Origin: Agrocybe praecox | Lineage: Eukaryota > Basidiomycota > Agaricomycetes > Agaricales > Agrocybaceae | Direction of reading: 5' to 3' | Length of the DNA: 64,000 bases | Assembly (NCBI GenBank): GCA_964017145.1 | Contig: OZ024848.1 | Span: 1,190,501 to 1,254,500 of the forward strand | Shown: one piece after another, positions 1 through 54,281 of the stretch | Layout: the number at the start of each line of letters is the position of its first letter | Position numbering within the stretch: the stretch's first letter is position 1 | Position numbers and translations under genes: made by a program | Notes under the pieces: generated by a model | Told to the model about the DNA's origin: nothing | Database searches by the model: none | What the model saw: the letters and a program-made list of their open reading frames with translations, nothing else

Positions 1-420
1 TTCATTCAGGCACTACACTGGGCAACTTCAGGATGAATTTCGGCAAGTGCAAGCATGCAAGATACAAGCAACACATAATACCGATGTTTGGATCGTTCTT
101 ACAACTATGTTATAGTAAGTTCATTGTATGTATCATATACTATGGTTTCTTAAATGTACAAATAGCCCCCGAAGAGTGCAAATCTCGCGTGTTGAAGCGG
201 GAGGATGGGTTTGACCCAATGGTTACGATGGAAACAACGGAGGACGAAGGCATTTTCGTTCACTCATTTGAGTCTGTGTCCGCAAACACATCTCATTGAT
301 CCCCTACACCAGCTTCACTCCCATCTCGGGTGCGGCCTGTATTCGCAAACACATCTCATTGATCCCCTATGCCAGCTTCACTCCCATCTCCACCAGCTAC
401 TGACACCTGCATGTATCATT
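1..420 (+). pseudogene. 5' part of a decayed HMG-like gene copy, split by the KDZ element
   Basis: From the window edge the frame reads HSG then MNFGK and continues to PEEC. It is clearly paralogous to the middle exons of the intact gene at 910-3193, which has HSG, MNFGK and VEEC at the same spacing. A short intron, GTAAGT to ACAAATAG at about 116-166, sits at the same place as in the intact copy. After PEEC the frame runs into a Ser/Pro-rich part and is stopped by TGA at 297-299 and again at 360-362. The second stop is a copy of the first, because a 63-bp segment is tandemly repeated (281-327 and 344-390). Homology stops at about 420, where the transposon end begins. The 3' half resumes at 12548. 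The upstream exons lie outside the window. It is a pseudogene because of the stops and the 12-kb insertion. Confidence 0.75.
411..420. repeat. Left target site duplication of the KDZ element
   Basis: ATGTATCATT directly precedes the left terminal inverted repeat. ATGTATAATT at 12538-12547 directly follows the right one. The two differ at one of ten positions. The true duplication could be a little shorter than 10 bp. Confidence 0.65.
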
Positions 421-500
421 AAGTGGTAGTTGCCCAATATACTTGATGCATCCAGGCCGGAAATGGCCCACTCGCCAGATTTGATATATCACTGAAGCAG
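421..500 (+). repeat. Left terminal inverted repeat of the KDZ element
   Basis: This is about 75% identical to the reverse complement of 12452-12537. The longest shared blocks are GGTAGTTGCCCAATA, TGATGCATCCA and CGGAAATGGCCC. Confidence 0.8.
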
Positions 501-909
501 CCTCACAATGGCAGTCATTATTATGATGGCGGCATCGTTCGGCATGAGTGGCATGTCTCAAACGACCTATTTTTAAAAATACACATAGCCACAGGCTATT
601 TGTAACTCGGCACTGCTCGGCAAATGTTGTCATTGATGGATGCACAGCCCATAAATGATCAAACATTGATAAGATAGCAGATGTTATCATATCTACACTA
701 AATTTAGATCATTGTTATGATTTCGTCTTCATTGAGAATATTATGATTGCACACGTGAATATGAATGATAATTAGAAAGAAAAAAGCTACAGTATGTTTA
801 AAGAACTATCAAAGTTGGGCTAAGATTAAATGAGCAATAAAATAACTACTATGAGAGAGAAACTGTTCAAAAATCGCTGACAATTGATTCGAAAAATTTA
901 GTTCACCCC
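501..909. other. Non-coding subterminal region
   Basis: AT-rich sequence between the left inverted repeat and the stop codon of the HMG-like gene. It probably holds that gene's 3' UTR. I see no convincing coding frame or repeat. Confidence 0.5.
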
Positions 910-3193
910 TTACGAAGATGATACAGTACCCAATATATTTATCACCCAAGAAACATCCTCTAAAGCGTTTTTCCATCCAACTTCTCCGCCTCCGCAATTC
1001 TTTCCTTTAGCAGCCACCCCCCAGAACCACAATGCCGCTATCAAAGTATACAAACCATTCTTACCCGGTCTCTTGAAGACGTCCAGGTTGCCATCAATAT
1101 CACGCCTGAGCTCACTTGAGTTACGCTGAACCCTCCATTCAGGTTGTAGTGTGATCCACCAGTTTCTAAACTCCCGCTGAAAGCTGCGCAGGTTTGTGAT
1201 CTCCGGCCTCAAGTTCCTCGCATGCTTGATCCATTGTGCAACGCATGCCGGGCGTCTTTCGGAGCCGATCTTCCCTTTGTCCTGGTAATTAGATGCGATA
1301 TCCTGGTAGCGTGCCCAGTCACCAAGTAAATGATACCATTCAGAACACATGGGCTCGGATTGGAAGACCTCCAACGCGTGTGAAAACCATGTGTGTGCGC
1401 CAGCTGGCGCCGACACATACGAAACATCTGGTATCAAAGGAATCAGGGTAGGTATGGAAACCGATGTTGAACGCGAGGGAATTGTGGCAGCAGCCACGTC
1501 ATGAGAAATTGTACGAGTTGGTGAACAAGTGGGTGGCGGAGAGTGCACATCTGGGGATTTGTCGTGCACCATGCTAGTTTGGCTGGGTGAAAGTCTTGAT
1601 TTCTTTTTGGTAGGAGATTCGTTGTCTACGACTTCGGCGTTACATTCGTCGATGTTTCGTTTGAGAGATGCAATGTCAGACAATGGTTGAGAGGTATTGA
1701 TGGCTTCGGTCTCAGCCATTGAAAGCTCGTTGATGGATGCGGCTCGAGAAACAGGGGGAGAGGGCACAGGAGACAGATTTTCCCTGCTAGCCACAGGAGT
1801 CGGTACCTCAGCAACTACAGGTCTCGTTGATGTGCTGGCATTTGACTCTGCAGATACTGTCCGAGGTTTCATGAGATTCAAAATCTTGACAGTGCTTGCG
1901 TCCTCGGCAGAATCGAGGGTGAATTTACTGCCATCGTCATCCGCCAAGGCTCGAGCAAGAGAGCCGTAACCGCTGGGCAGAACGGAAGCGCGGCATTCTT
2001 CGACAGCTGAAATTATGTTTAAGACCAGTAATTCGTAGATAAATATGAATAACGTACTGTAACATTTTTTTAAGAAATTACCAAAGATAGGGAGTATGTA
2101 CTCCCTATATGCGCGTCTTTCGGACTTCCCGAAGTTCATCTTGACATTCCCGCGAGTTTCGCCTGAGTGAATACTAGTTATAGAGCTAATTAACTACAAA
2201 AAAACAAAAAAAAAACAAAAGTGGTGTAAACTCACCTAACCATGTTTAATCTACCTTGGTCGGCAGGTTCTGGGCCACCTGCAATCAATGTAACCTTCCA
2301 TCCTGTATGAGCAGCGACAAGGTCCAGAATGGGCTGCACGAATGTTGGTAAGCCATGTATAGCCCTGTATAACGTTAGATATAGTGGATATTGAAACATT
2401 GAATCTGACATAAAATGTACCTCTGTCGATCCTCAGCCTTGTTGGATGGCGAGTCCTGCTTGTGATTTTCCTCGAATTTGACAAGGGCAGCCTTATGCTC
2501 CCCTTTGGCTCGATCTTCCCAGTGTTGACGTTCGTCTTCATCAAGCTTGTTGAAGTGTTCCTTGTATATTTGACATCGCAAGGCCGCGTGTTGCTTGACA
2601 GGAATAGAGTGTTCCTTCACACGGTGTTCAAATATCGGGTCGACAATAGAACGGTTGTGCTGAGCCCAGAAATTGTATGCTGGCTTGAGGCGGGGCTTCT
2701 TCAAAGAAGTGCCAGTGAGCTGAGACATGAGGACCGTCATAGGGTCAGTCGAATTAATTTCCGCTTTTTGCAGTGTCTGGTTCGATTTCTGATACTGGTA
2801 TTGAAGTCGGCGACGAATTTGCTATATATTGAACTTTAATAATGAAGGGTAGAGCAAGATAAAAAGTAACGGGCATACCTCTTTGCGAAATTTGAGTGAC
2901 TTTACTTGATCCTCGTATGTGGCAAGTGCAGCCACGTAGCTATCGGTGTCCATAGTCCCATCTTCGGGTGATTTGAGCTCGTCATCTGGAGCATCATCGT
3001 CAACTTGAGCCAGCCATTCAGGACTCGGTTCGATATTATGGTCCAGAGTTATTGGGAAACGTTTGAAATACCGTCGCTGAATATCAGCAATGGTGTCGGC
3101 GAGGTGATTATTGGCAACTGCCTCAGCATAGAGCCCCATTTGATTCCCGAGAAATTCTTTCCTCAGCGCAGTGAAGGAGCCGGGATTGACCAT
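910..3193 (-). CDS. HMG-box-like protein, KDZ element cargo
   Basis: Five exons (3193-2879, 2821-2421, 2364-2236, 2173-2058, 2006-910) with GT-AG introns of 51-62 bp give 685 residues. The joined length is a multiple of three. The start is the ATG before VNPGSF. Residues about 146-225 (KKPRLKPAYNFW to KAALVKFEENH) have the HMG-box pattern: a basic/proline start, an aromatic FW, a later W and a KAAL helix. This suggests non-specific DNA binding, but the match is by eye. A conserved block follows (FVQPILDLVAAHTGW, then MNFGKSE and YREYILPIFG), then a Ser/Pro-rich linker and a Trp-rich C-terminal domain (TWFSHALEV, QWIKHARNL, KNGLYTLIAALWFWG). The same architecture appears in the split pseudogene flanking the element, so this is a multi-copy family. 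It is transcribed divergently from the gene at 3704 across about 510 bp. A role in target binding or chromatin opening for transposition is inference. Confidence 0.75.
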
Positions 3194-3703
3194 AGTGAAT
3201 AAGCAAGCAAAGAGCAAAAGCAAGCGAACAGACGTCGGAAATGAGATGCAACGTAGCACACTAAGAAAAAAGCGAAAACGTTAGTGAACAACGTGCAAAT
3301 TTGAAACTTCACAAATATGGAGTAGCGTACCTATATTTTTGAGCTTTTGGTTTCATTTTACAATAAATCTTGTATCTTGACCAGTTAAGCGCACAGAATA
3401 ATTCATACGAGGTTAGACTGGTTATCGTTAAGCGTCAACGTAATGTATTCCATTCTCGCATAGCGGTGAAGTTGCCATTTCTGGTTTGGTTTTCGTGACA
3501 TGTCACATTAGTTTCTTTGTCCACAACGTCCACAACCACGATATCGGATGTGCATAACCCTCGCAAATCTCGAACCCAAACCCTGATATTATCAAAGCCC
3601 CAACCGTATAAAAGGAGAGCAGCTATAGCACTGTCATGTAGCTCCTCTACTTTTCTCAATCACCACCACTCGTTTCCCACTTTTTCAACCACACTCGTTT
3701 AAC
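3194..3703. promoter_or_regulatory. Divergent promoter region with a TATA box
   Basis: 510 bp between two divergently transcribed cargo genes. TATAAAAG at 3607-3614 lies about 97 bp upstream of the plus-strand ATG at 3704. No equally clear TATA box is seen for the minus-strand gene. Confidence 0.55.
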
Positions 3704-4484
3704 ATGCAACCGACCTCTGCCCGCGTTGGAACTCGTGTTTCTTCCGGTGTCCCAGGTTAGTTCTACATACAGTTCTTTGGTATCGTCTGGCTAACGTCGT
3801 ACTAGATACCATTGTTGTCTTCTCCCAGTCTGGGAAGACCGAGACGAGCCGTCAGCTTGAGGCCGGTGAACTTGCCGGTTCGTACCCTCTCACATTTCTT
3901 TCATTTATCATTTTACTGTAGCTAAATGATATTCTTAGGTCCTTACCGGTTCGAAACAACAGTCAAGAGCCACGGTGTGAAGATTTTGCAGCATATTACA
4001 CTCCCTGCTGCTCTTATTCCCAGAAGCGAGTAAGTCCATTTACATATATTCTTTTCAATTCACTGCTTATATCACCTTTTCTTTTAGCAACACCATTGTC
4101 GCGTCTTCCATTGGCGTGCACCTCATTATCCCCAATGTTCCCAACGTTGCGCATTCCACTCTCATTCCGATCCTCCAGCGCGCTTTGAATAAGCTGGTGG
4201 CTGAATTGGAAGCTGGCGGTCATCGTCAATGGCCTATCACCTTCGATCACGATCCCGATCACGAAAACGACGCCGACGACGAGTCTGCACCACCACCTCC
4301 AACTGCCTCGGCAACCACCAAACGCAAACGCACTCGAGCAAGCCATGCAACCATCCACAAAAAGGCTAAATCCCTTTCTATCACTCCCCTCCTGGCCACC
4401 GAAGGCAACTCCGATGACGAGAGCTCCAACATTCAGGTTGAAAACGCTGCTGATACTCTTCAGAGCCCTGACATTGCCATGTAA
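3704..4484 (+). CDS. Small unknown protein, KDZ element cargo
   Basis: Four exons (3704-3755, 3806-3877, 3939-4029, 4088-4484) give 203 residues. Every junction is GT-AG and the total length is a multiple of three. The N-terminal ~120 residues look like a compact domain (VVFSQSGKTETSRQLE, PYRFETTVKSHG, HITLPAALIPR, VHLIIPNVPNVAHS). A putative helix with LNKLVAELEAGG follows. The C-terminal third is acidic/Ser-rich with a basic cluster (KRKRTR and KKAK), consistent with nuclear import. I do not recognise the family. SGKTE resembles a nucleotide-binding turn but is not a full P-loop. A TATA box lies upstream and AATAAA at 4609-4614 could be its polyadenylation signal. Position and intact splicing say it is a real cargo gene; its function is unknown. 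Confidence 0.7.
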
Positions 4485-5031
4485 GGACTAGCCCGGGCAT
4501 GAACACATTTATGCGATCATGGTGCCCCAACGTCACTTCTTGGAACTAGGACTTCGCCGCTGCTTTCTTGTTATCATATAATACCCCTATACCCTATATT
4601 AGATTCTTAATAAATACTTGTTGCACTGTACCTCAGCCAGACTGAATGAGCTCCAAATCTGAGACATCAATGCTCGCCTACAACAATCACGGCGACTTCG
4701 GCTATAGTAATTAGTACTGTAACACAGACCGCGTGAGTAGCGTAGTACCCAAACCTTTTCAAAAAATTGTCTGGTCATACGCGATAGGTGGGATTGCTAT
4801 CACAGGGTTCGCTACCGCAATACTGTTCCCTCGAAATCGTATCCGATCCAATGATGTATTCACAGCACCAGAAGCTCGGTACTGACGGAAGTCAATCCAC
4901 ACCTATTAGGACCCCCCTCATGCATCCCAGGAATATACCGATACATCCACATCTGTAAGTTGCACTCACATTCAAAATAAATGATATGTATATCACCCCT
5001 ACAATGACTATCTATCCCTATCTATCCTATT
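4485..5031. other. Convergent 3' intergenic region
   Basis: Lies between the 3' ends of the unknown gene and the dioxygenase gene. It contains AATAAA at 4609-4614 on the plus strand. I see nothing else. Confidence 0.5.
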
Positions 5032-6584
5032 CTACTTTTTCAGCCCAGCTGTCAACTCATTGATAGTAGAATATAAGGATAACCCAAGCCTGCATCTCTC
5101 CATACGCTTCTTCATTTCTTCTTCGAGAGATTCCTCCTCTAACCCATTGAGATACTCTTCAGCCTTTTGGTAGTTATATGCGACCCATCGAAACGTCCCT
5201 CCGGCAGAATATTGGGTGAAGGAATACCTTGTTTCATGTTGGGATATTGGAGTATTTGAGTGGGCAACGGCTGCAGAAGAAACCAGTATAGTTGACCCAG
5301 CTGGAAATTCCACGACCAATTTGAGGGCCCAAAGCACCAGATGTGCACCTTTCTTAGGATCAAAATCGCCCAGAGGAGTGATTGCGCACCACCCAAAAGG
5401 CAGATTCCCGTAGTCCAAGTGGCGCCGTGTAACTGTACGAGGTCCAAAATTGAAGGTTGTGGCGGCCCATATGCTATCCGAGAAATTTCGAATGAGGTTT
5501 GGATCATTTCGAAGAAGATCGTGGAAGTTGTCCAGATAGTACTTGAATAGTTTAGGTCCCCATGTTGCGAAGGCTTTGTTTGAGTGGCCAGAAATGCGCC
5601 GAATGTGCTTATTCTGTAAAAGTTTCCTTAACTCCTTCTCGTTGACCCTACTGTTACGCAAGTTTCCTGGTTTCTAGATACGAATTTTGTGAGATCAGAT
5701 ACTAGTACTAGTTATATGTAGAGACGATTGCTTACCTCTTGGCCGCCTCCATGTGAAATGCCTACACCCAGCGAAGGAAAATCTCCTCTTCGGTTTTGGC
5801 ATGATTTCTTGGTAAAGCGACACCGTATTGCAGACTGCCACATAGCTTCGAATGCGCCTCGAGTAACAATATCCCAGTCAGAATCCTTCGGGCTGCCAAC
5901 CAGAGCGCCAACGACCCTCCTATCGCGGTCTAGTACGGGATGAGATGTCCTAAAGTGTGGGTAAATATCACCGCAAAATCACAAAGCGAAATATACCCAC
6001 CTCCCGTCCCACTCGACAAGCTTGAATCCTTCCTTGTTGACAAGATAATCGGCATCGTATACTTCCCCTTCTTTTTCACGTTTGGACGTAAATCCTGTTG
6101 AGCACGTAGGTATGGTCGATGTGTCAAAAGATGTTTCAATAGCTGCTGATTTCTCGATGTGATTTCTTATCAGAGTTGGATGGACGGGATTGTGGCCGTC
6201 GGGGTCTTCTAGTCCTGCTTGTCGTTTGGCCTTGCGCTTAAGTCGACGACGTTCGTGTCTTTTTTCCCTGTCCCTGCGAGCTTTTTTGCTAAGGGTTGAG
6301 GTCCCAGGAGTCGAATCTACATTGCCAGGACGTATTGGCGATGCCGACCTCGAGCGATTCGGGGAGCTTGGAGGTGAAGAAGTTGGAGTTAATGTACCAA
6401 AATAGATATCGTATTCCAGCTGAGCGACATCCGGCGTCGCCGCGTCCGTAGGTGCTAGATCAAGCATTCCAAGAGTTGTTTCGTTTGCCATACTCTGGAG
6501 AAGGCTGTCCATAAAAGAAAAGGTTGTGTCGTGAGAAAATATTGCATTCTCCAAGTCAAGAGTCGAGGGCACGGGGCTGTCCAT
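5032..6584 (-). CDS. TET/JBP-like 2OG-Fe(II) dioxygenase (putative 5-methylcytosine oxidase)
   Basis: Three exons (6584-6001, 5949-5736, 5673-5032) give 479 residues; the joined frame is a multiple of three. The N-terminal ~190 residues are Ser/Pro-rich with a strongly basic stretch (KKARRDREKRHERRR), a likely nuclear localisation signal. Then come DGRTSHPVLDRDRR, a GGGQ turn and the double-stranded beta-helix core. The iron ligands are visible: H351 and D353 in RRHLDYGN, and H404 in AVAHSNTP. R415 in HETRYSFTQY is the expected 2-oxoglutarate-binding arginine. VLWALKLVVEFPAGSTI and SAGGTFRWV match the pattern of mushroom TET/JBP proteins. Known family members oxidise 5-methylcytosine (TET) or thymine (JBP) in DNA. 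Here the substrate is inferred, 5mC being more likely in a fungus. All catalytic residues are present and no truncation is seen. Confidence 0.85.
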
Positions 6585-7299
6585 TTTTATCTGTAAAGGG
6601 AGTGCGTGTCAACGAGACTTTGAGGAAGCGAGAAAAACGAACAAAAGAAAGCGAACAAAAGCATTGTGCAGCGATTAATGTCCCCAGGGCGTAAGAACTC
6701 AAATTGCGAAACACAAAACTTAGCAAACCGCGATAAATGTCCCCGGGGCGTCAAGAACTCATACCGCGGTTGCGAGAAGAAGAATAAAACAAGAAAACAG
6801 GTCAACGTACCGTCTTTGCGTTGCTAATTGGAAGTTGAAAAATCAATCAAGTTCAAGTTCAACTATGGCTGTGCAGGTGACGTCATAGATCATCGATCAA
6901 CGTTGAACGTTCACGTTCAACCGTGACCGCGTGACCCAACATGGCTTTCAACCCTCTGCATCATCTCTCTGGACTCAACGAACACGGTAGGACATGCTAA
7001 ACGGTAAGTAATTCGTTTATACCCATCTTGATATATGTTTTCTGACCTTATTCGTTTTCCTTAGGTCCCTCCACACCCGAACTCGCTTCCACCCGGGCCT
7101 CTCCTCTCCAGCGAGGGATGTAGGCCACTCAACACGTCAATGTCGATGCATTTCGGGAAGGTTTGTGGGTTGGGGGCAGGTAGTAAACACGAGGGGAGAC
7201 CCATGGTGTGGGAGACCCGCGAGGTACGCAAGGAGGCGAACCATAATCGGTTCGCCTCTCTTTACCTACCTTCCCTGCTGCCTACTAACATTGAAACAG
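6585..7299. promoter_or_regulatory. Dioxygenase upstream region with inverted and direct repeats
   Basis: It holds two near-copies of a ~31-bp motif (6671-6701 and 6730-6761, core GTCCCC then GGGCGT and AAGAACTCA). It also has a perfect inverted repeat GTTGAACGT-TC-ACGTTCAAC at 6902-6921 and a 10-bp-stem hairpin GAGGCGAACC / GGTTCGCCTC at 7233-7258. A GTAAGT at about 7002 and a following TTCCTTAG could be an untranslated intron. No coding frame is convincing. Any operator role is inference. Confidence 0.5.
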
Positions 7300-7359
7300 G
7301 TTAGGACATGCACCGCCCTCTCACACACTCTGTACACCGCACAACGCGACACAGGCTCA

Positions 7360-8115
7360 CGCCGTACCTCCACATTCACCTCCCTCGCGTACAAAAGCGA
7401 GCCGGAGGTGGATTTTTACCGCGTTTAGATTCCGTTCGTGTGTCCTCCACCTCCCTCGCATGCAAAAGCAAGCTGGAGGTGGTTTCGTGGCCTTTCGACA
7501 ATGTTTGTGCGTCCTCCACCTCCCTCGCGTGCAAAAGCGAGCCGGAGGTGATTCTGTCGACGCCGTTTGTGCGTCCTCCACCTCCCTCGCGTGCAAAAGC
7601 GAGCCGGAGGTGATTCTGTCGACACCGTTTGTGCGTCCTCCCTCCCTCACATGCAAATGCGAGTCGGTGGTTCTGTCGCGTTGGTTTCGACGCCGTTTGT
7701 GCGTCCTCCACCTCCCGCGCGTGCACGTCTTCCACCTCCCTCGCATGCAAATGCGAGTCGGAGGTGGTTCTGTCGCGTTTCGACGCCGTTTGTGCGATCT
7801 CCACCTCCCGCGCGTGCACATCTTCCACCTCCCTCGCATGCAAATGCGAGTCGGAGGTGGTTCTGTCGCGTTTCGACGCCGTTTGTGCGATCTCCACCTC
7901 CCGCGCGTGCACATCTTCCACCTCCCTCGCATGCAAGTGCGAGTCGGAGGTGGTTCTGTCGCGTTGCGACGCTGTTAGGGCAAGCTGGAGGTTATTTCGA
8001 CACCGTTCGCACCTCCTCCACCTCCCTCGCATCCAAGAGTGGCCAGGGTAGATCGTTAATTACTTTTTGACGTTATCCTTGTCTCGTCCACCTCCCTCTC
8101 ATGCAGCGAGCAGGA
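7360..8115. repeat. CpG-rich minisatellite of hairpin-forming units
   Basis: About ten tandem units of roughly 63-83 bp. Each contains CACCTCCCTCGC, then TGCAAA, then GCGAG and GGAGGTGG, so each unit folds into an imperfect stem-loop. Inter-stem spacers are also conserved (GTTTCGACGCCGTTTGTGCG). Units are rich in CpG, unlike the AT-rich sequence around them. Long reading frames cross the array in several frames on both strands because the unit lacks stops; they are not genes. It sits between the dioxygenase and transposase promoters. Confidence 0.85.
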
Positions 8116-8127
8116 GGTGGGCTATCA

Positions 8128-8238
8128 TTCCATAGTTTCATGTATATTCCTACTATATATATTTTGCTTAAAACTCTGTGGGTTCCATAGTTTCATGTAT
8201 ATTCCTACCTACTATATATTTTTACTTAAAACCCAGTG
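8128..8238 (+). promoter_or_regulatory. Duplicated ~56-bp TATA-containing segment upstream of the transposase
   Basis: Two tandem copies (8128-8182 and 8183-8238) begin TTCCATAGTTTCATGTATA and contain TATATAT-type boxes. The second lies about 100-130 bp upstream of the transposase ATG at 8331, a plausible core promoter position. Confidence 0.5.
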
Positions 8239-8330
8239 ACCCGTTGAACCTTCAAAAAACCCACGAAACCTTTCCAACCCTTTACCCTGACCTACTGAAA
8301 CCCCTACCCTTACGTACCTTGGCACTGTTG

Positions 8331-11300
8331 ATGACAACGCAAAGAATTAAACGCCTCAAACCCACTGCTTATCACGATCGAATCCCTCTCGAAGACGATT
8401 ACGAAGTTCTGCAAGCGCGTTCACTAAGGACTAGTAGCCGTAATATTCCTCTTGAAAGTGCTCGTTCTCCATTGAAAGGCCGAACGACATGGACGGTTGG
8501 AACGGCCTGGGCACCAGAGGATGACGAAGAACTTTCCTTGGATGAATCGGGAGACTGGTACGATGAAGAAGTGAGCACGGACGTATGTGATAGCAAGTTC
8601 AGCCAGGCTCAGAAAGTTCCTAAAAAGAAAAGGGTCAAGAGCAAAGTTTCGGTATGTTCCTCCAGATAATTTGAACGTACTCACCTGTTAATTTTACAAA
8701 AAATTCTAGATGCGCCCACACGTAGTATGGAAAGATCAGCACCGGTCGGAATACTTGGACGAGGAGATTCGCCGAGATGGGAGAGGCGATTTTATCAGGG
8801 ATACCCAGTGCCCAGACTGCCTCGCTCGCCGGAAAGATATTCCAAACGATGCTGAATATAGATGCCAGGACTGCTTCACTCCAGATCTCGTCTGTCAGGA
8901 ATGTTGTGTGAAGCGCCATCGACAACATCCATATCATATTATCGAGGTAAGAGCATGATTATTTCTATATATATTATTTATTGCAAATTTATTGACTATT
9001 TAACAGCATTGGGTGGATTCAACATTTGTGAAGGTCTCCCTTAAATCACTGGGGCTCAGCATCCATCTAAACCACGCCAGCATGAAGTGTCCACTGCCTA
9101 TCAAGTGCCACAAGGATCTCAGAGTCATACATACGAACGGCGTTCACGAAATTTCCCTCAGCTACTGTGGGTGCAACCGCGCAATACCACAGCATATCCA
9201 ACTTCTCAGACGCGGTCTTTACCCTGCTTCACAGAGGGTGGTGCAGACTTGTTTCACTTTTTCTCTCCTCAAGCTTCTCCACTTGTTATCCCTCTGTGCG
9301 AAAACTTCCGTGTACGATGTTTATGACACGCTCGAACGTTTGTCGAATAACGTGGCCGCAAAACCGACAAGTTCACGATACCGGTCTCTCATGAGGGTCA
9401 TACTGCAGTGGAGGCATCTTAAGTTGTTGAAAAGAGGAGGAAGAGGTCACGACGCCGCAGGAATAGAAGGCACAAAGGATGGCGAACTCGCAGTTATGTG
9501 TCCTACATGCCCTCATGAAGGTATAAATATTCCTGCCGACTGGAAGGACGCACCCCCGGACAAGCAGTAAGTATCATAACTGGTGTTTCATATAATTTTA
9601 TTCATGACATTTCAGATTTTTATACCAGCCTATTGTGTGTATGGACGCGAACTTTCGGCTAAAGAATCGGCTGGTTTCAAATTATTCGGCGGATCCTGGG
9701 CTGGGTACCGGATTGGCGTATATGATTCGCAGAGAGGGCTACGAGGACTATGTACTTAGCCGTGCCGATGATGAGGATGTAGGTTCTTCGTGACGAATTT
9801 TCTCGTTTGACACTAACATGATTTTCAGATTAGTACTTGCGTTGGATTTCAAGCATTGGCTCAAGCCCTTACCAGGTTTAGTCGTGGACTACGGTACACG
9901 GGTGTAGGAGGCACATTCTGTGGTCGAGGTGAAATGTTCTTACCGAACGGGGTTGGTAACCTGCAGAAAGGTGAAAGGTACGTGGAGCTGTCCTTTTCCA
10001 CTTAACACGCACTTACTTTCACGCACAAGATACGCTAACATGGACTATATATTTGCCTCTGCCATTCGAAACATGAAAGCCACTTCAATCGTCATTAGTT
10101 ATGACATCGCTTGCCAGTGGTTCAAGAATCTCGGTCAACGGATGAAAGAACATTGGCCAGAGGACCTTCGAGTCGATCCGCAAGTCAGGCTTCAACCCCT
10201 AATCCCAAAATTTCACGAACCTGCGCACAACGATAAAGACCACCAGCAATATTCGTTCAACCTCGTCGAAGGCATGGGTCTGACGGATGGAGAAGTCCCA
10301 GAAAGAGGCTGGTCTGGGAATAACGGACTCGGCGGATCGACATCAACTCTGAGTCCTGGCTCTCGACACGACGTCCTGGATGATCAATTTGGCTTCTGGA
10401 ATTGGAAGAAGTACTGTACAATGGGTACGCATCTTCCAGATAATATACAGACATTTCCTGACGTCCTAATTAGGTATCACACTTATTCGGAAATACAAAT
10501 CCGCGATCAGTGAGAGGAACCGACAAAAAGAAGCCCACCAAGGATTTACGAATGCAATCTCAGAAAGCACAATCGCAAAATGGGAGTGGATGTGCGAGAC
10601 GTGGAACAATGCGCCATACCCAAAAAATTGTCCCAATCCTTATGAAATAGAAGGCGCAAGTAAGTACTCTCGTTTCAAATGATTCGTATTATTAAATCCA
10701 GGGCAGAAATTACAGAGGCTCAAGTCAAAGAGGAATTATCAAGGGAAGAAAAAGAGAAGTTTACAGAGGGTCAGGCTAGGCTCCACAGTATGGGGCCATC
10801 GGAATTTTTGCTAATGGGTTTAGAACTCGAGGACACTCAGTAAGTACAGATATTGAATGCCGGAACCACGTACTCATAGTCCTCGTTGTCAAATCAGACG
10901 ACGGCTGCGTAAAACAGTTAATGAACGAGGGAACGTACCTCATAACATAGATGATGGGTCATTGCAAGATCAGCGTAGAGTCCTTGCCACCAAAATTCAA
11001 GCATGGGAGCTCGTTCGAGTGGTGTATATTCCCGGCGTACTTCAACTCCAACTCCACCCAGATCATGAAGGCCCAATTAATTGGGACGACTGCCCAAGAC
11101 CAGAAGATGTTAATCTTTGGCTTCCATCGAACATCCCTGAAGATCACAGATCCACCGCCTGCGTCCAAGGTCTCCCAGAATTTGAGGCCAGGCTTCGAAT
11201 AGCACAGTGCTTCGATGCCCTGAATGCACTGCGTCGTTCGCTTCGTGTTAAAACTAGGATGATCTATTTCAAGTATAGAAATATCAGGGGTCAACACCAG

Positions 11301-12203
11301 AGTACGAGGTCTCGCTCACTCATCGACAAGGTCCACGGCCGTGCTTTGGCAGCAGTTGACAAATACAGAGCTGCTCGAACTGCCAAACTTTGTCTTTCTG
11401 GCCCAGGAGCATGGGAGGAGACCCTTCTACCACTGCTTAATTCTGACGTTCGTAGCTACACAGACCCCGAGAGCAAGAAGACCACTAGCGGAAGACGGGG
11501 TATTTGGGAGGATGGGCAAGTGCCCGAGCAACAGGCTTTGAGAGAAGTTGGTAGCGGGATTTCTGGAGAAGATGTGGATGTGAATGGCCACGAAATTGAA
11601 GGCGAGATCGAGGTTTTTCCAGCTGATCGAACTCGACGCGAAGGTACCGGGAAAACCAGGCAGAAAGTCTCCTGGATATGGATGGACATTCGTCCAAAGG
11701 ATGGTGTTTTCGGTGTTACACCACCTGTAGCCAGCGATGAGTCGATGGGTGTAGAAACCAGCACAGACACCGATGAGAGAGACGGACGGGAAGAGGATGA
11801 CATGTGCCGTGCGGAATGGGCTAGGAGTAGAGCTCGGGTTCGACGTTGTGAAGAGGAGGTCAAAATGTTGAGGGAGGAGATGCGGAGGGTCATTGAATTT
11901 CTGAGGTGGAAGGCTGAGTGGTGGGATCTCAGAGCTCAGGCGCGTGAAGTTAATATGGAATTACAAGAGGGATTGCGAGCATACGCCGAACGACAGGCAG
12001 GGATACAGCGCCTCCTATCTGTCACCTTTCAACATATCTGGCGAATTCCTCTTCGTAAAATTGATGAATTGGATGTCCTTCACGGTTGCAACGATGACAT
12101 CCAGGCCGAAACTGATAGTGATGAGGACGGTGATGAGGACGATGGCAATGAGGTTTCTCCTGTTCGAAATCACCCACCGCCAATTGATGACGTCTTTATG
12201 TAG
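8331..12203 (+). CDS. KDZ-family transposase with CxC2 cysteine cluster
   Basis: Nine exons give 1149 residues: 8331-8651, 8710-8946, 9007-9566, 9616-9778, 9829-9977, 10030-10424, 10474-10659, 10707-10839 and 10898-12203. All introns are GT-AG and the total is a multiple of three. The last acceptor could instead lie slightly upstream. Residues about 141-430 form the CxC2 metal-binding cluster (CPDC, CQDC, CQECC, then FCxC-like and CPTCPHEG motifs). The transposase core follows with conserved acidic motifs: D383 in CMDANFRLK, D502 in SYDIACQW and E565 in LTDGEVPERGW. GPGSRHDVLDDQ-like and WNWKK elements come next. The C-terminus has a charged coiled coil and an Asp/Glu-rich tail. The KDZ family is proposed to use an RNase H-fold DDE chemistry for cut-and-paste transposition. 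Uninterrupted coding across nine exons suggests an active enzyme. Confidence 0.88.
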
Positions 12204-12451
12204 CTTTTGTGTATTTTCGCTTTCTCTCACCTGACCCTTATCTATGTGTTATAAATCTTATCTCATCTGTAATTTTGATATGTGTGCAACATAAAAATAA
12301 ATAAATTGTAGCTTCTATGATATCATACCTGCGGTGACGTAGCAGTAATAAAAATACCGAAACAACAAAAATAGATGACACTATATATAAATATATCGCA
12401 GCCGGATATCCGGCTGTATGCGGAACTTCAAACTGCATTCGGTAATGTAGC
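12204..12451. other. Transposase 3' flank with an 18-bp palindrome
   Basis: AT-rich 3' UTR region. CAGCCGGATATCCGGCTG at 12399-12416 is a perfect 18-bp palindrome about 35 bp inside the right inverted repeat. No counterpart was seen near the left end. Confidence 0.55.
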
Positions 12452-12537
12452 ACCCGTTTCCGTGATGCATCAATTTGGGCAACGGGGCCATTTCCGCTGT
12501 GGATGCATCACTTGTATTGGGCAACTACCCAAGGTTG
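12452..12537 (-). repeat. Right terminal inverted repeat of the KDZ element
   Basis: Its reverse complement matches 421-500. It contains an internal near-duplicate of the motif TTGGGCAAC. Confidence 0.8.
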
Positions 12538-12547
12538 ATGTATAATT
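12538..12547. repeat. Right target site duplication of the KDZ element
   Basis: ATGTATAATT, one mismatch from 411-420. Confidence 0.65.
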
Positions 12548-13940
12548 CTGTCTGCACTGGCTGCCATCTCAGGTACGGCCTGACACACTATCACCATCCT
12601 CGACCACCTATAAAGCAGTTACAGTTCCTGCAACGTCGTCCATTTCTTCTCCGAAATATGTCCAAACCAAGGGTCTCATGGACAAGGGCTCTTTGTTAGC
12701 TCCGAGTCCGACTCTCCGCAACAGATCACCGTCTGTTTGTTTTAGCCCTCCTCTATCACCTCGTTCTCCACCACGGCTCATGGCACCGGAATCTAATTCC
12801 ATTCCACGCCAACGGCCCACGTCTCCCAGTCCATCACTGTCGCCCACTACTGCACCTCTTGATGGCAATCCCACGGCTTCAAATTCAAGTGGACGATCCC
12901 CATCACCACCGCCCTCTGTTGTGCCTCTCACTCCTTCAAACGGCCGGAACCAGGTACTGTCTCAAAGTCTATTACTACCACCCACGGTTGCGTCTCCCAA
13001 CGATCCTGCAGCTTCAAATTCAAGTGGACAATCCCCATCACCAGCACCACCCACGATTGCGCCTCTCAACGATCCCATGGCTTCAACTTCAAGTGGGCGA
13101 TCACCATCACCATCGCCCACAGTTGCGCCTCTCACTCCTTCGAACAGCCAGACGCCATTGTTGTCTCCAAATTCTCCAAATCCATCACTACCACCCACCG
13201 TGCCACTCATCGACAATCCCCCTTCAAATGTTCAGACCCCATCGTTGCCTCAAAGTTCTCGTAAACGCAAGCTCGATACCGAATCCATGTCTTCTATCCG
13301 AACAAGAAAACGGCAACGTGAAACGCCGTCCCAGTCAGCCAGCCTTTTTGTTCCTTCATCCCATCTCACCCCTTCGCCACCTCGGTCTACTAATTCCATC
13401 ACTCCATCCATGAAATTCAATTCGGCAACCGTATCCAGGTCAAATGAATGTGCAGCCGAGATACCTCCATGGTTCGAAACTGCCATTTCTTTGCTGAAAT
13501 TAGAGGAGACTCGACTCGGACGCGAATGGAGTAAGCTCGTGGGACTTTGGTGCACGTTTGAGCAAATGAATGCGTACGAAGAAATCAGCCGCTTGAAAGC
13601 CCAATATTGACCAGTTGTCCTCAAGGATTGGATACAGCGCGCACGTCCTGGACTTTCTTCATGGAAGCCTGCTATCCAGAATCCAGCAAAATACCAGGAG
13701 GAATTTCTTCGATGGTACCATATTCTTCAGCCAACATAGAGGCTAGCGAGGGATGGAAATATCATTGCTGGATTGGACGGTGATTGGGAACCATTGAACT
13801 GACCCAGTCTCAACGGTCTCCTTACCGTGATGGTTGGTTTGCTTTATTGGGGCTTGGTTTTAAAGAAGAAAGAGACACAAAAATGGAAAGAGACTGTATC
13901 AGATTTTACCTTCGTTCTGCAGAAATTGACCTCCTTGTAA
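12548..13940 (+). pseudogene. 3' part of the decayed HMG-like gene copy
   Basis: The frame reads Ser/Pro/Thr-rich sequence with degenerate repeats (SNSSGQSPSP type), then KRKRQRE, then a Trp-rich domain homologous to the C-terminus of the gene at 910-3193. IPPWFETAISLLKLEE aligns with its TWFSHALEVFQSE, LKDWIQRARPGLSSW with its QWIKHARNL, and LLTVMVGLLYWGL with its LYTLIAALWFWG. It is broken by TGA at 13608-13610, TAG at about 13738, TGA at about 13798 and a frameshift near 13808. The homologous frame then ends at TAA 13938-13940. The short motif CCATCTC followed by TACGGCCTG near its start also occurs in the left half near 320-340. Together with 1-420 it makes one gene split by the KDZ insertion. 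Confidence 0.75.
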
Positions 13941-14516
13941 TTTTCTTTCCCTTTGTTTATATTTTTCTTTTATTTTGTCCCTGTTCCGCGCTCTATGATA
14001 CCATTATGTTATTTTTATACATATAATGAAAGCTGCACAAATGGTAACCCCGGTCGCCGAGGTCACGCACTGAAAAGAACCAAGGCCTAGACCACACTAA
14101 AATAGACAAGACCCATCACGAAGAATAAAAATAGATTACGAGCTCAAAGCTGTTTATTTTCGAACGTCATCCAAAGTTGAGGTCTTCAATCCATCCATTA
14201 TTCACCTCCTATGACGAGGCAAACATAGTAGATATGTTTTAAAATATTTATAGATGCTATATATGTTTTTTTGTGGCCGGAAATTATCATTCTTCTATGT
14301 TATGGATGAAAATTCAACCAAACTACCCAATATGGGCTTTCTTATTTATATTTGGTAGAAGGGTACACGGATAAGATAAGATAAGGCAGTTGGGCAGTTT
14401 CCACACAGGTAGGCCCCATCCTAGATATATCATAGTGTCAGGCAGGTACCAAGGTATGATATATGTAGGGGACTGCTACAAGTGACCTGCAGAGAAAAAA
14501 CAACTTATTAAACATT
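13941..14516. other. Non-coding AT-rich sequence
   Basis: Contains a short GATAAGATAAGATAAGG run near 14370 and no supported gene. It may be the 3' region of the decayed gene copy or of its host element. Confidence 0.4.
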
Positions 14517-15511: not shown

Positions 15512-16005
15512 CTCTTAGACAACTCCACCACTCACTATTCATCACCTCACACTTATCCACACCAATCTATTCATCTCTCTTCCCACCATTTGCCCCCACA
15601 TCCTCTCATCACATATATCATCCTCTTCATCATCACCAACCCTTCAACCTCCAATACCCTCACAGTCTTCTACATCATTTCTCTCTCCCCAATTTCAACA
15701 TCTCCTCAAGACACCTCTCTTTCTACTGGATCTCTCACTCTCTGCTGTGTGTTGTGTGTGAACTTGTAAATAGGGATACCAACTGTTGGGGCAGATTCAG
15801 GCCAACTGTTTCTGTCTTTGGTGGTCTAGGAAAATACCAGGTAGTCAACCCTGTGATCCTAGGTTTAGACCCACTGTGTTTGGGGTGACAACTGGGTATC
15901 CATTACATAGCCTTTTTTAATTACTTAGTATAGTCTCAAGGGCACTTTTTGTAGATAGCTTCTCCCACACACACACCAGAGAGCCTCTACTTTATCTGCA
16001 CCAAG

Positions 16006-17235
16006 ATGGACACTATCACCACCCCTACCACTACTCTTCCCTCTGTGGAGGAGCTCCTTCAACAAATCTCTCTCCTTACCCAGGAGGTGGCTCTCTTAAG
16101 GCAGCAGCAGCAACAGTCAGTCACACCTCCAACTACTCAATCACCATTCTCCTCTGCTGCTAGAGAAGTCCATCCTTCCTCTGCCAATCATAGTCCCTTT
16201 ACCTTTGGTTCACAGTCTGGAATCAAGGTTTCTCCTCCTGAGCCATATGATGGCTCTATGTCAAAAGCAGAAACCTTCCTCAGCCAACTCAAGTTATATT
16301 TCTATGGGAAGGGGATTACAGATAACCTTCAAAAGGTTGTTTGTGCCCTGTCCTATATGAAAGAAGGCACTGCTGGGAAATGGGCACTTGACAAAACTAA
16401 AATTCTGGATGGAGATTATTCCAAAGAAGGCCTTTGGAATGACTTTGTCTATGAATTCAGGGAGGTATTTGGAGATCCAGACCCTGCTAGCACAGCCAGA
16501 CACAAAATGAATCTTCTGAAGCAGGGAAGTCAAACTGCTGATGAATATGTGGCTAGCTTTAGGGAATTGGTCTCTGATACTGGGTACAATGATGCTGCTT
16601 TGGTTGAGAAGTTTCAGACTGGGCTAAACAGATCACTCAGGGAAAAGGTTTACAATGTCCCTGATATGCCCAAGACTCTGAATGGCTGGATCTCTTGGGC
16701 CACCAAGCTGGACAGGCAGTGGAGACAGATGGAAGCCTTTAACAAGTCTACCTCCACTACTACTTCTTCTTTCTCAAAGGCTCCTAAACCTCAGCCTAAG
16801 CCAGCAGCCCCTAGTCCTTCTTCTTTTTCAAGCAGTCAGAGAGGTTTTGTTGCTCAGGCAAAGCAACCAGATGTTGTTCCCATAAAAGTTGACTCTGGAT
16901 GGAGGTCAGTCAGGCCACTTATCTGCTTTAAGTGCAGAAAGCAAGGACATAAGGCTGCTGACTGTAGATCCTCAGTCAACATCAATGCTATGAACTATGA
17001 GGAGTTGAAAGACTTCTATGGGAAACTCATCAAGGAAGAAGAAGAGAGACAATCACAAGAACAGAAGAAGAATTTAGAGGCACCATTGGTGAAGAACATG
17101 TCCCAATGGAATAGATTTAATGTATTAGAAGATGAAACTGAGTCAATCCCACCTCTTCTGAATCTGATACAGAAATCATGTTCTCAAATTCTGATTCTTC
17201 TCTTTCTTCTACTCCTGAGAGGATATACATCTTAG
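16006..17235 (+). CDS. gag: Gag polyprotein of gypsy element 1
   Basis: 409 residues starting at ATG 16006, about 500 nt downstream of the LTR. An N-terminal coiled coil (LLQQISLLTQEVALLRQQQQQ region) and Pro/Ser linker precede the retrotransposon gag domain (AETFLSQLKLYFYGKG through WNDFVYEFREVFGDP to LREKVYNVPD). A CCHC zinc knuckle CFKCRKQGHKAADC binds nucleic acid. Its last ~31 codons overlap the start of pol in the -1 frame (overlap about 17142-17235). Pol is therefore probably made by -1 frameshifting or by an independent start. I found no textbook slippery heptamer. It forms the virus-like particle that packages element RNA. Confidence 0.9.
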   Translation: MDTITTPTTTLPSVEELLQQISLLTQEVALLRQQQQQSVTPPTTQSPFSSAAREVHPSSANHSPFTFGSQSGIKVSPPEPYDGSMSKAETFLSQLKLYFYGKGITDNLQKVVCALSYMKEGTAGKWALDKTKILDGDYSKEGLWNDFVYEFREVFGDPDPASTARHKMNLLKQGSQTADEYVASFRELVSDTGYNDAALVEKFQTGLNRSLREKVYNVPDMPKTLNGWISWATKLDRQWRQMEAFNKSTSTTTSSFSKAPKPQPKPAAPSPSSFSSSQRGFVAQAKQPDVVPIKVDSGWRSVRPLICFKCRKQGHKAADCRSSVNINAMNYEELKDFYGKLIKEEEERQSQEQKKNLEAPLVKNMSQWNRFNVLEDETESIPPLLNLIQKSCSQILILLFLLLLRGYTS

Positions 17236-20200
17236 GGCATAAGCCAAAGGCCTCTACCCATTTGTCAGTCATTCTCAAGACAATGGACACAGGAAAAAGG
17301 CTGCCTGTAGATGCTTTGCTTGACTCTGGAGCTACTGGTCTTTTTCTGGACACTGAGTTTGTAAAATACCATAATCTCAACACAAGAAAACTTCTTAGAG
17401 CTATTCCAGTCTACAATGTTGATGGTACTCTCAACAAAAGTGGCTCTATTCATGAGGAAGTGGACTTGATTATGGTGTACAAGAACCACACAGAAAAGGC
17501 TACCTTTGCTGTTTGTGACTTGGGAGACAAAACTGCTATCATTGGACATACCTGGCTCTATCTACACAATCCTGATGTCAACTGGAAGTCAGGTGATGTC
17601 CAGTTTACTAGATTTCCATCTGACTGCCATATGGAAGTGATTAGAGCCAGGAGGAAGAGACAGAGGATAGCTGCAGTACAGAGAAGACAGCTCCCTCAGT
17701 TTGATGATGAAGGTGTAGATCTTGTAGATCAGTCACCTGACTCTGACTCTGAGATTGAGCCTGAGGATAGGATTTTTATTTCTTATCTCCATCCTCAGAA
17801 ACAGTCTATCAATGCTACCTCAACTGTGTCTCAGAAATTGGCAGAAGAGTCTTACCAACAGGCTGAATCCCCAAAGAAAACCTTTGAAGAAGCTGTTCCC
17901 AAACACTATCATCAATTTAAAGGAGTTTTTTCAAAAGAATCCTTTGATAGGCTACCTGACAGAAAGCCTTGGGATCATGCTATTGAGCTAAAGCCTGGGT
18001 CTGAGCCTTACAGATCAAAGATTTATCCTCTTTCCCCAAATGAGCAAAAAGAGCTTGATGCTTTTTTAGAGGAGAATCTGAAGTCTGGTAGGATTAGACC
18101 ATCCAAGTCACCTATGGCATCCCCTGTGTTCTTTGTTAAGAAGAAGGATGGCTCTCTTAGACTAGTTCAGGACTATAGAAAGCTAAATGAAATGACTATT
18201 AAGAACTCTTATCCCTTACCTCTCATTTCTGACATCATTACCAAACTCAGCAAAGCCAAGTATTTCACCAAGCTGGATGTCAGATGGGGCTTTAACAATG
18301 TTAGAGTTAAGGAAGGGGATGAGTGGAAGGCAGCTTTCAGAACCAATAGAGGGCTGTTTGAACCACTGGTCATGTTCTTTGGCTTAACCAACAGTCCTGC
18401 AACTTTCCAAACTATGATGAATGACATCTTTATAGAGCTTATTGATGGCAATGTGGTCATTGTTTATATGGATGACATATTGGTCTTCACTGAGACTCTG
18501 GAACATCATAGGGAGGTAGTCAAGAAGGTTTTGCAAATCCTGGAAGATAACAAACTCTACCTGAAAGCAGAAAAATGTGAATTTGAAAAGGAAAAGATTG
18601 AATATCTTGGACTTATCATTTCACAAGGCAAGATTGAAATGGATCCTGTCAAGGTAGAGGGAGTTTCCAAATGGCCTGAACCTGAAAATGTCAAGGATGT
18701 TCAATCATTCTTGGGATTTGTCAACTTCTACAGAAGGTTCATAGAGGATTTTGCAGACATTGCCAAGCCACTTCATGAATTGACAAAGAAAGGGACAGTC
18801 TGGAGATGGGGACTTAGACATCAGGAAGCCTTTGATCAGTTAAAGCTTAAGGTCACATCCTCCCCTGTTTTGGTTTTCCCTGATGATAATAAGCCCTATA
18901 AAGTTGAAGCAGATAGCTCAGATTATGCTACTGGGGCTGTCTTATCTCAGGAAGGATCAGATGGGAAATGGCATCCTGTTGCTTTTATGTCTAAGAGCCT
19001 CTCTGAAGTAGAAAGAAATTATGAGATTCATGACAAGGAAATGCTGGCAATTATCAGGGCACTAGATGAATGGAGACATTATCTTGAAGGGACTCAACAT
19101 ACCTTTGAGATTTGGACAGACCACAAAAATCTAGAGTACTTTATGACTGCCCAGAAACTAAGCAGAAGGCAGGCTAGATGGTCTCTGTTTTTGTCCAGAT
19201 TTGACTTTTCTCTTCATCATAGACCTGGTAAAAAATCCCTTAAGCCAGATGCTCTGTCAAGGAGATCAGATCATAAGAAGGGGGAGAATGATAATGAAAA
19301 TGTAGTTCTCCTCAAACCTTCCTACTTCAAGATCCAGGCTCTCAAACAGGGGCACACCATTTTGTTTGGTCCTGAGACTGATCTTCTGAAGAAAATCAGA
19401 GAGGCAAAGGACATGGATGAAAAGGTTGTGAAGGCAGTACAGGAATTGAAGGGATCCTCAACCAAGAAGATAGAAGGACAGGAATGGGCAGAAGAGCAAG
19501 GACTTATTCTCTACAGAGGGAAAGTGTATGTTCCCAAGGACAAAGATCTTAGAAGGAAAATTGTGGAACTACATCATGATGCCTATATTGCTGGACATCC
19601 AGGAAAATGGAAGACAATAGAGCTTGTCTCTAGAAATTATTGGTGGCCAGGAATGTCTCACTACATTGCAGCCTACACTAGAAGCTGTGATAGATGTAAC
19701 AGGACAAAGACATTCCCAGCTAAGCCTGTTGGCTTCCTGACTCCTACTGAAATTCCTTCTGATGTCTGGCAAACCATTACTGTGGACTTTATCACTGGAT
19801 TACCTGAGTGTCAAGGGTACAATGCCATCATGATAGTTGTAGATAGGCTTAGCAAGATGATCCACATCATACCTACCACAGATGAGGTCACATCTGAAGG
19901 TACTGCTAAGCTCTATAGAGACTATGTCTGGAAACTGCATGGTCTACCTATCAAAATAATCTGTGATAGAGGTCCCCAGTTTGTCTCCAAGTTCATGAAA
20001 GAGCTCAACTCCTTATTAGGTATTCAGACTGCTTCATCTACAGCCTATCACCCTCAGACAGATGGTCAAACTGAAAGGGTAAATCAAGAAGTAGAACAAT
20101 ACCTCAGGCTCTTCATAAACCATAGACAAGATGACTGGGTAGAATGGTTGTCCTTAGCTGAATTCTCCTACAACAACAGAGTTCAAGCATCCACTAGGCA

Positions 20201-45909: not shown

Positions 45910-46283
45910 TGTAAGGCTTGGTTTCGAGATCCCACGAGAATCCCAACGAGCGTAAATTTAGATGTGGGCTTGCCACGTAGAGCACGAAGAAGAGCAGCCT
46001 CGTTCCGAGGTGGGCTTCTTCTGAGGAGTTTAGTTCCTAAACTCCTTACTCAATAGGAATCGGATATTGCGTACAAGAGAGCTACTGTTGGTACAGAGCT
46101 CGATCTCAAGATAACGATATACGATTGCAAGAAGTGAAAAAGATAAGTACATCAGCCCATCAAGGGCGGGTACACTACTGCGGAGTATTAATTATACAAA
46201 CTCCGCTCGAAAGATGTTTAGTAAATACGTAGCAACAGAGTAGTTATAGATTCGAGTTAGTCCGTTAGCCGACACGCCTTACA
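45910..46283 (-). repeat. 5' LTR of gypsy element 2
   Basis: 374 bp, starts TGTAAGGC and ends GCCTTACA. Target duplicate TGGGC lies outside at 46284-46288. Confidence 0.95.
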
Positions 46284-53100: not shown

Positions 53101-54281
53101 TTTGATAATTTGTCTTGAGTCTCCTGCTTATTCATATACTGAGTTGTATGAGCTTGTATGATGCTCAAACTTTCCCATTTAGCCAGCTGCCTGCTTTGCA
53201 AGCCTTGGTCAACATTGAAACGGAAATAAGTATCTGGTGTGTTTGAAAAGCGACGCAAAAGCTCCTGGTGCGTGCGCTCACAGTCTGTAGCCATAGATGT
53301 GAGCATATGAATAACATTCTGTGGAATCACTCTTCCCAAGAATCCAGGTTTCTCAATCTGGATCACAGCAGGTAGGCCAGTCCCAATGCTCACCAAGCAC
53401 TGCAAAGGATGTTTTGGAAAAAGAGAGTGGGCCTCATCAAGGACTAGAAGACAAGGGTTGTTGTGGCTTATCCCACCATCAACATATGCTTGGTTCCGTC
53501 CAATCTCAATCTGCTTAAAGACAGTAGGGGTAGCAGATGTTGCCCGAGCAGCTTCCCAGATTGTGCAGGTCAAAGAAGTCTCACGAGGAGACTCGTAGGA
53601 TCTGAAGAGCACCGGAATATCCATGTTGGTCCCATTCCGAGCACACACAAAGCTATGGTATGTACAACTCAGTTTCAAATATACTCAACTTTGTTGAATC
53701 AAGCAACGCACGTTCGACATATCCCAGATTCATTGCTTTCTACCAAAGAAGCATTGGCATCATTAGTCGCCACATGCACCATAGCCTTGATCGCGCTTGC
53801 GAGGGCGGTTGCCTTGAACACTCCATCTCCGACCATCTTCGTCTGAGAGAAAACACTTTTAACCAGTGTATCGTACTGTGTGATTGCCTCGTCGAGATCC
53901 ATGCGAAGGCGCCCGAGCATCAATGCAATGATCCTATGATGTTTGTGAGTCCCATTAGTCAAAGTGTCAAGATGCATCAATGTATTACGACTCACCCTCC
54001 TGTACTAGTCCCACCGATTATATCAAAATATTCGCATGGCTTCGGTATGTCTTTGAGACTCTCCAAACCATCTCTTGCTCGTCGCGCATTCTCCTCAAAC
54101 TTCAGCTTGTGCATGATCTCCTTCAGGATGAGGAGTTCGGAAAGCCCACGAATTCCGCCGCCATCTATTGAGACGTCTTACTTAGTATCCTTCATCACCG
54201 ATCGACATGAGCACAGTGAACCATCTTACCTAGCGCGAGGAGTCTCAAGGGCCTAGGTGCTTCGTTGATTGGGGTAGTCAT
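50156..54281 (-). CDS. NLR: patatin-like phospholipase, NB-ARC and TPR repeats
   Basis: Seven exons (54281-54230, 54164-53996, 53933-53712, 53652-53048, 52989-52776, 52724-52349, 52291-50156) give 1257 residues; the frame closes exactly. N-terminal patatin phospholipase: oxyanion motif DGGGIRG (18-24), nucleophile elbow GTSTG with S71, and Asp of the dyad D206 in VDGGISHNN, all present. NB-ARC: P-loop GLGGAGKSQ (402-410), Walker B LLVIDNADD (468-476), TTRNHEV sensor, and a later helical region ending RIHPLVQQWGR. From about residue 796 come ten 42-residue kinesin-light-chain-type TPR repeats plus a degenerate eleventh. Fungal proteins of this layout are thought to act in self/non-self recognition and programmed cell death, with the repeats sensing and the lipase executing. 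That role is inferred here. The gene appears complete, and its 5' end faces the unassigned region 54282-57000. Confidence 0.92.
50285..51544 (-). repeat. Near-identical 126-bp TPR-coding repeats of the NLR
   Basis: Ten in-frame units share the consensus LGENHPxTLTSMxNLA followed by xTYxAQGLWQQAEALxV. Changes are confined to a few positions (S/D after HP, G/A before NLA, A/G/S before TY, Q/R/W before AQ, E/Q/K before VVV, T/S/R before KEI). DNA identity between units is very high. Confidence 0.95.

Follow-up and report, generated by a model that had tools for sequence, protein, structure and literature searches.

The element and its ends

The 64,000-nucleotide stretch of Agrocybe praecox DNA analysed here (assembly GCA_964017145.1, contig OZ024848.1, positions 1,190,501 to 1,254,500 of the forward strand), which we call the window, carries near its left end a KDZ transposon of the Kyakuja type. 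Its four predicted genes encode a probable HMG-like protein (G1), an orphan protein (G2), a TET/JBP-like 2-oxoglutarate (2OG)-Fe(II) dioxygenase and a KDZ transposase. The features of the element, in window coordinates, are as follows.

391-12563, plus strand: the complete element, a KDZ transposon of Kyakuja type (12,173 bp) with 5'-CA..TG-3' termini, delimited by an identical twin with different flanks
384-390, no strand: left target site duplication CCATCTC, 7 bp, present once at the paralogous empty site
12564-12570, no strand: right target site duplication CCATCTC, 7 bp, an exact repeat of the left one
393-515, plus strand: left terminal inverted repeat (TIR), gapped; its inner part is the repeat initially annotated at 421-500
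12432-12560, minus strand: right TIR, gapped; a right end common to dispersed copies
910-3193, minus strand: G1, 667 amino acids, divergent HMG-box-like region; exons 2879-3193, 2421-2821, 2255-2364, 2082-2162 and 910-2006 (splice model, profile comparison, AlphaFold)
3704-4484, plus strand: G2, 203-amino-acid orphan; exons 3704-3755, 3806-3877, 3939-4029 and 4088-4484 (splice model; same place in related elements)
5032-6584, minus strand: TET/JBP-like 2OG-Fe(II) dioxygenase, 479 amino acids; exons 6001-6584, 5736-5949 and 5032-5673 (splice model, homologues, profile comparison)
7352-8105, no strand: tandem array of palindromic units between the start codons of the TET-like gene and the transposase gene
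8331-12203, plus strand: KDZ transposase, 1146 amino acids, nine exons, CxC2 and KDZ domains (splice model, Pfam)

The genome of the window (59.2 Mb, 347 contigs) was searched for copies with the left end as the query, and a second full copy was recovered on contig C5 at 225-12397. Window positions 389-12563 align with this twin over 12,175 positions with zero mismatches and zero gaps, and the flanks differ beyond. The limits of this identity place the ends of the element at 391 and 12563. The twin is bracketed by its own exact 7-bp duplication, TTAAATC, in place of CCATCTC at the window copy; the alignment is two bases longer than the element because TC is the last dinucleotide of both duplications. 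In its ends and its genes the twin agrees with the window element, in keeping with the unit described in the initial annotation. That annotation had also proposed looking for an empty site, and a paralogous one exists at C2:3658208-3658714. This locus is 81% identical to the right flank, and the joined flanks of the window element align with it unbroken across the junction, with a single CCATCTC. Cut-and-paste transposition is strongly implied, and the window element has likely moved very recently.

The TIRs of the window element start 3 bases from its ends. With gaps, 93 of 136 columns are identical, and the score of 46.5 exceeds all 500 shuffles (maximum 19); the ungapped core of 72 nucleotides (425-496 and 12458-12529) has 79% identity. 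The inverted repeats noticed initially are therefore real. The ends had been placed at 421 and 12537; a real element lies there, but its true ends are 30 and 26 bp farther out. The 10-bp near-perfect target duplication reported with those ends lies inside the element, and the true duplication is 7 bp long and exact.

The predicted genes

Splice models with GT-AG introns of 49-92 bases, predicted from sequence, give open frames for all four genes, consistent with the earlier description of four intact multi-exon genes. The transposase alone has Pfam matches above cut-off; G1, G2 and the dioxygenase of the window have none. It matches KDZ (PF18758) at 5.7e-60 (203 bits, cut-off 26.6), with a CxC2 cysteine cluster ahead of the catalytic domain (1.5e-35), which bears out the identification as a KDZ transposon. 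D383, D502 and E568 are its putative catalytic residues.

The predicted iron ligands of the dioxygenase are H351, D353 (motif HLD) and H404, and R415 is predicted to bind 2OG. In 30 aligned sequences both histidines are invariant and the aspartate and arginine nearly so. From a collection of 5.8 billion proteins, 7993 candidates were scored, and 261 of these are relatives at E <= 0.001. Among 120 listed relatives, two have a precomputed Tet_JBP match, one bears the name 2OGFeDO JBP1/TET oxygenase and two that of prolyl 4-hydroxylase subunit; those named by organism come from what we take to be mushroom-forming fungi. In a 20-sequence alignment, Tet_JBP is matched by four sequences (best 9.5e-7) and 2OG-FeII_Oxy_3 by eight. 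A homologue, P0002, 54% identical to the last exon of the window gene, has a predicted fold with a mean predicted local distance difference test (pLDDT) score of 93.3.

The genome itself has 21 places matching PF12851 at E <= 1 (e.g. C12:2720989-2721459), one of them above cut-off. They form a second Tet_JBP set, with zero overlap with the places listed for the dioxygenase family of the window. Nine of the 21 were taken for profile comparison, and the ninth, which contains a stop, was excluded. Against the seven below-cut-off fragments, each of which matches Tet_JBP at E <= 1 alone, the dioxygenase family gave a probability of 93.4 (E 2.4e-7 as a single comparison) over the HxD...GG...H core. 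The value was 95.3 with the above-cut-off fragment added, 34.4 with that fragment alone, and 0.02 and 0.23 in controls. The assignment as a TET/JBP-like dioxygenase, made initially from the letters, is thereby supported.

G1 of the window has no Pfam HMG_box match, and one of nine aligned relatives has one at 0.022. Profile-profile comparison with 9 of the 38 HMG-box places of the genome gave 66.9 over 36 columns (controls 0.02-0.23), which agrees with the initial recognition of an HMG-like protein and places the HMG-like region in the gene at 910-3193. Comparison with the PDB gave one weak match to an HMG-box protein (E 0.094), and the AlphaFold model is helical (pLDDT 78.6). On this moderate evidence G1 is probably an HMG-like protein. 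G2, at 3704-4484, is the protein without a recognised domain that had been noticed: no relative was found in Pfam, the PDB or the protein collection, and public homologues at E <= 0.001 numbered zero among 297 candidates (single sequence) and zero among 7990 (alignment).

The palindromic array at 7352-8105 has a predicted RNA fold with z of -7 against 100 shuffles, and no RNA family reached Rfam thresholds in window 1-14000. An own-genome search that skipped simple repeats recovered the array only in the two identical copies. We considered it as a shared binding target for an anti-silencing factor and rejected this idea; the arrays of other elements differ in place and sequence.

Related elements in the same genome

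Sixteen loci of this genome were compared, including the window element and its twin, and 13 of them have most of the KDZ gene. The other three are C11b, where the stretch ends inside the KDZ gene, and C12 and C9b, which are without KDZ in the stretches covered. Wherever the genes occur in the 16 loci, the order G1 (minus), G2 (plus), TET (minus), KDZ (plus) is kept; the four-gene unit thus recurs elsewhere in the genome. G2 is clear in 11 of the 16. At its place and strand, C1a, C3, C13 and C11b have a diverged open reading frame (ORF) with weak single scores (E 0.015 to 10), and a profile of these four gave 54.7 against G2 (controls 0.04 and 0.05); in C11a a candidate is found only at chance level. 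Of the 13 KDZ-bearing elements, eight have the TET-like gene and five do not. The five may be four, since C278a and C278b, two nearly identical copies without TET that lie inverted to each other on a 60-kb contig, are possibly an assembly feature.

CA..TG ends with exact 7-bp duplications were found in 8 of the 13 (window, C5a, C278b, C3, C11a, C13, C1b and C17b) and not in C5b, C10, C1a, C17a or C278a. About one such pair is expected by chance over the 13, with an end motif taken from the window element and its relatives and a score threshold chosen post hoc. TET and transposase genes lie together between these ends in five of the eight (window, C5a, C3, C11a and C13), as had been claimed; C278b, C1b and C17b are without TET. 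The window element and C5a, both counted among the five, have one and the same sequence. Neither of the refuting observations named in the initial annotation was thus made. TIRs score above all 500 shuffles in seven of the eight, C3 being the exception, or in six of seven independent elements since window and twin have the same sequence.

In trees that contain only elements of this genome, the KDZ tree has TET-less elements at two separate positions, each beside a TET-bearing group, which would mean that TET was either lost twice or gained repeatedly. For the most part the dioxygenase tree tracks the transposase tree, with C11a shifting. Because three TET-less relatives have complete ends and one TET-less group has near-identical copies, TET does not seem to be strictly required, or needed in cis. 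By inspection, without a family scan, the gaps in C1b, C17b, C278b and C17a show only short ORFs, and a cargo gene substituting for TET was rejected; a 43-amino-acid ORF in C17b resembles the TET N-terminus too weakly (E 0.07) to be accepted as a remnant.

Genome-wide, TET-matching stretches fall into at least 60 loci, with a G1 relative within 12 kb in at least 30 and a KDZ relative in at least 15, about one being expected in each case. There are at least 34 KDZ loci, 20 of them with G1 nearby, and at least 44 G1 loci, with TET nearby in 28 and KDZ in 20. These counts are lower bounds because part of the candidates was scored (TET 89 of 120, G1 66 of 325, KDZ 40 of 552) and the G1 and KDZ stretches used were selected from those listed.

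Two pairs of elements are moderately diverged. The ratio of nonsynonymous to synonymous substitution rates (dN/dS) for C5b/C10 is 0.27 in KDZ, 0.23 in TET, 0.25 in G1 and 0.27 in G2, and for C1b/C17b it is 0.26 in KDZ, 0.14 in G1 and 0.37 in G2; against the window element itself, silent sites are mostly saturated. In-frame stops occur within the HMG-like exon of C12, C17a, C9b, C10, C1a and C17b, and because of them several relatives look decayed. Stop counts on tblastn stretches were dropped as a decay measure, because translation across introns produces spurious stops, also in the genes of the window element.

The right end recovered at least 35 dispersed places at 79-82% identity (40 of 120 candidates scored). 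Short elements of the miniature inverted-repeat transposable element (MITE) kind were also seen. One of 800 bp (C17:10636-11435) has KDZ-like ends and the 7-bp duplication TCCTCAC; counting itself, it is present in full length at least 21 times at 91% or higher (302 candidates, 40 of them scored). Another on C2, of 859 bp, has KDZ-like ends and the duplication GTTGCTC. For a third candidate, on C6, the left end was not found within the stretch examined.

Surroundings of the element

Both flanks of the element match G1.

1-383, plus strand: 5' part of an interrupted host gene, the HMG-like (G1-like) one belonging to an older KDZ element, extending upstream of the window (tblastn of G1 to 9-245, 30%, and to upstream DNA)
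12571-13937, plus strand: 3' remainder of this HMG-like host gene (G1 residues 406-664 match 13227-13937 by tblastn, 25%; paralogue at C2)

Directly upstream of the window there are both TET and G1 matches, and the paralogous empty site on C2 is a G1 relative adjoined by TET and KDZ matches. Judging from these matches, an older element of the same kind received the insertion, and the window element lies within its G1-like gene.

Farther along the window, 15955-20963 contains uninterrupted Ty3/gypsy-like gag and pol frames with a chromodomain, and 38059-45957 a minus-strand frame of 2632 amino acids that by eye resembles a second gypsy-type polyprotein. TPR-repeat and patatin frames on the minus strand at 50159-53684 are suggestive of an NLR-like gene.

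Proposed role

We put a probability of roughly 60% on the following reading: a Kyakuja (KDZ) transposon with four predicted genes occupies 391-12563; it is complete and has likely moved very recently, and it is predicted to counter the silencing of its own DNA by means of its TET/JBP-like oxidase, with likely help from the HMG-like protein. The transposase would recognise inverted repeats carrying TGATGCAT-like motifs and excise the element, insertion would occur at sites cut with a 7-bp stagger, and short MITEs with similar ends may be mobilised in trans. The TET-like protein would oxidise 5-methylcytosine (5mC) on or near KDZ elements, which would then stay transcribed. The HMG-like protein may bind or bend DNA, and G2 may be an accessory of the transposase or the oxidase. 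Four loci of the genome match PF00145, a DNA-methylase family, and such a host fits the anti-silencing idea.

Several observations weigh against an anti-silencing use of the dioxygenase. The window protein itself has no Tet_JBP (PF12851) match at E <= 1, and a TET locus lies within 12 kb of only 14 of the 34 KDZ loci listed. Others weigh against it too and also fit the alternative of a passenger gene, in which the TET-like gene would be cargo passed down with little benefit to the transposon and retained only because the elements are young. TET is absent from 5 of the 13 KDZ-bearing elements, on two branches, one with near-identical copies, whereas G1 is in all 13. Five of nine TET copies, window and twin included, retain all four residues predicted for the active site; three have changes (C10 and C1a are without the arginine, C11b has Glu for Asp), and C13 is unaligned there. 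The closest pairs (C1a/C3, C17a/C278b and C9b/C278b) have dN/dS of 0.42-1.23, the TET value of C1a/C3 being 1.23. Lower CpG content from methylation-driven decay was expected in TET-less elements, but CpG observed/expected is 0.88-1.04 in five TET-bearing elements (two identical) and 0.98-1.05 in three TET-less ones. Because it is near 1 in both, there is no sign of TET guarding against such decay. Yet the TET dN/dS of 0.23 for C5b/C10, the intact active site of the five copies and the at least 60 TET loci speak against a passenger, and we consider this explanation unlikely.

It is still less probable that the oxidase serves transposition itself or a base modification other than removal of 5mC, for example by acting on another base or by labelling element DNA for recognition by the transposase. 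When positions are counted from the first iron histidine, the window protein has Asn and Cys where CcTet of Coprinopsis cinerea has Gly331 and Asp337 (positions from the accessible text of PMC11040006), and the substrate of the window dioxygenase therefore cannot be read off CcTet, which was not recovered by sequence or profile search of the PDB. Against this alternative, the same text has Asn at that spacing correspond to Asn1387 of human TET2, a 5mC contact. An assembly error that duplicated one insertion would account for the absence of any difference between element and twin across 12 kb, and the twin does start at base 225 of its contig; the flanks at the two sites are unrelated, however, and each site has its own exact 7-bp duplication, making such an error very improbable.

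Within the anti-silencing reading, HMG, G2, TET and KDZ might form one ancestral, co-inherited anti-silencing module. HMG and G2 would then be indispensable and TET would act in trans, with TET-less siblings and 0.8-kb MITEs depending on full elements of this genome for both oxidase and transposase. We regard this extension as doubtful.

Comparison with known systems

Iyer, in PNAS in 2014, reportedly described basidiomycete KDZ-TET clusters in which TET/JBP and KDZ genes are linked and further proteins occur, among them one with a divergent HMG domain.

Complete TET-bearing Kyakuja families with exact ends, Kyakuja-1_LB and Kyakuja-2_LB, are given for other fungi in the accessible text of Kojima 2025 (PMC12730594). 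They share with the window element a KDZ transposase with a TET/JBP gene, CA..TG termini and 7-bp duplications. Because the ends and duplications match, and these hallmarks occur in the window element, its twin and six further elements, the window element is probably a further member of this kind. In the same text, TIRs are reported absent in the two Laccaria families, whereas they are strong in seven of eight elements here; HMG does not occur in its main text and no G2-like gene was seen in the parts consulted, whereas both genes are present here. It also relates that oxidised methylcytosine surrounds Kyakuja elements in Coprinopsis, and anti-silencing by oxidation is its leading idea. The window dioxygenase has HxD and not HxE, which Kojima gives for PE-type TET, and the PE-type feature is absent. 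Kojima's AG-type TET carries Gly or Ser at the place of CcTet residue 331 and Asp at that of residue 337. The likeness to CcTet is in the HxD...H iron triad and the Arg farther on, and the difference is in the Asn and Cys that occur at the spacing of Gly331 and Asp337 (PMC11040006, accessible text).

KDZ1-KDZ3 of Cryptococcus, 9-11 kb KDZ elements whose insertion into a reporter gene was observed, resemble the window element in being KDZ elements with TIRs. They differ in having CxC1 where the window transposase has CxC2, and in duplications of 8 bp (KDZ1) or 4-8 bp (KDZ2, KDZ3) against 7 bp here; their TIRs are 139-241 bp long, and no TET is noted in the text consulted (PMC12810828).

The initial annotation had judged the four-gene unit and its exact ends worth describing. 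Complete TET-bearing Kyakuja elements with exact ends have already been published for other fungi. Relative to the accessible published descriptions, what is added here is the strong TIRs, the constant order HMG-G2-TET-KDZ, the TET-less siblings, G2, the MITEs, and the nesting with a paralogous empty site. A single genome supplies an element with exact ends, its fresh twin and a paralogous empty site, together with MITEs that match and sibling families that are without TET, and the question whether transposon-borne TET genes fight silencing thus becomes a comparison of like with like. The element ends are corrected and a conserved orphan cargo gene, G2, is brought to attention. The window element is an unusually well-bounded member of the TET-bearing Kyakuja and merits description.

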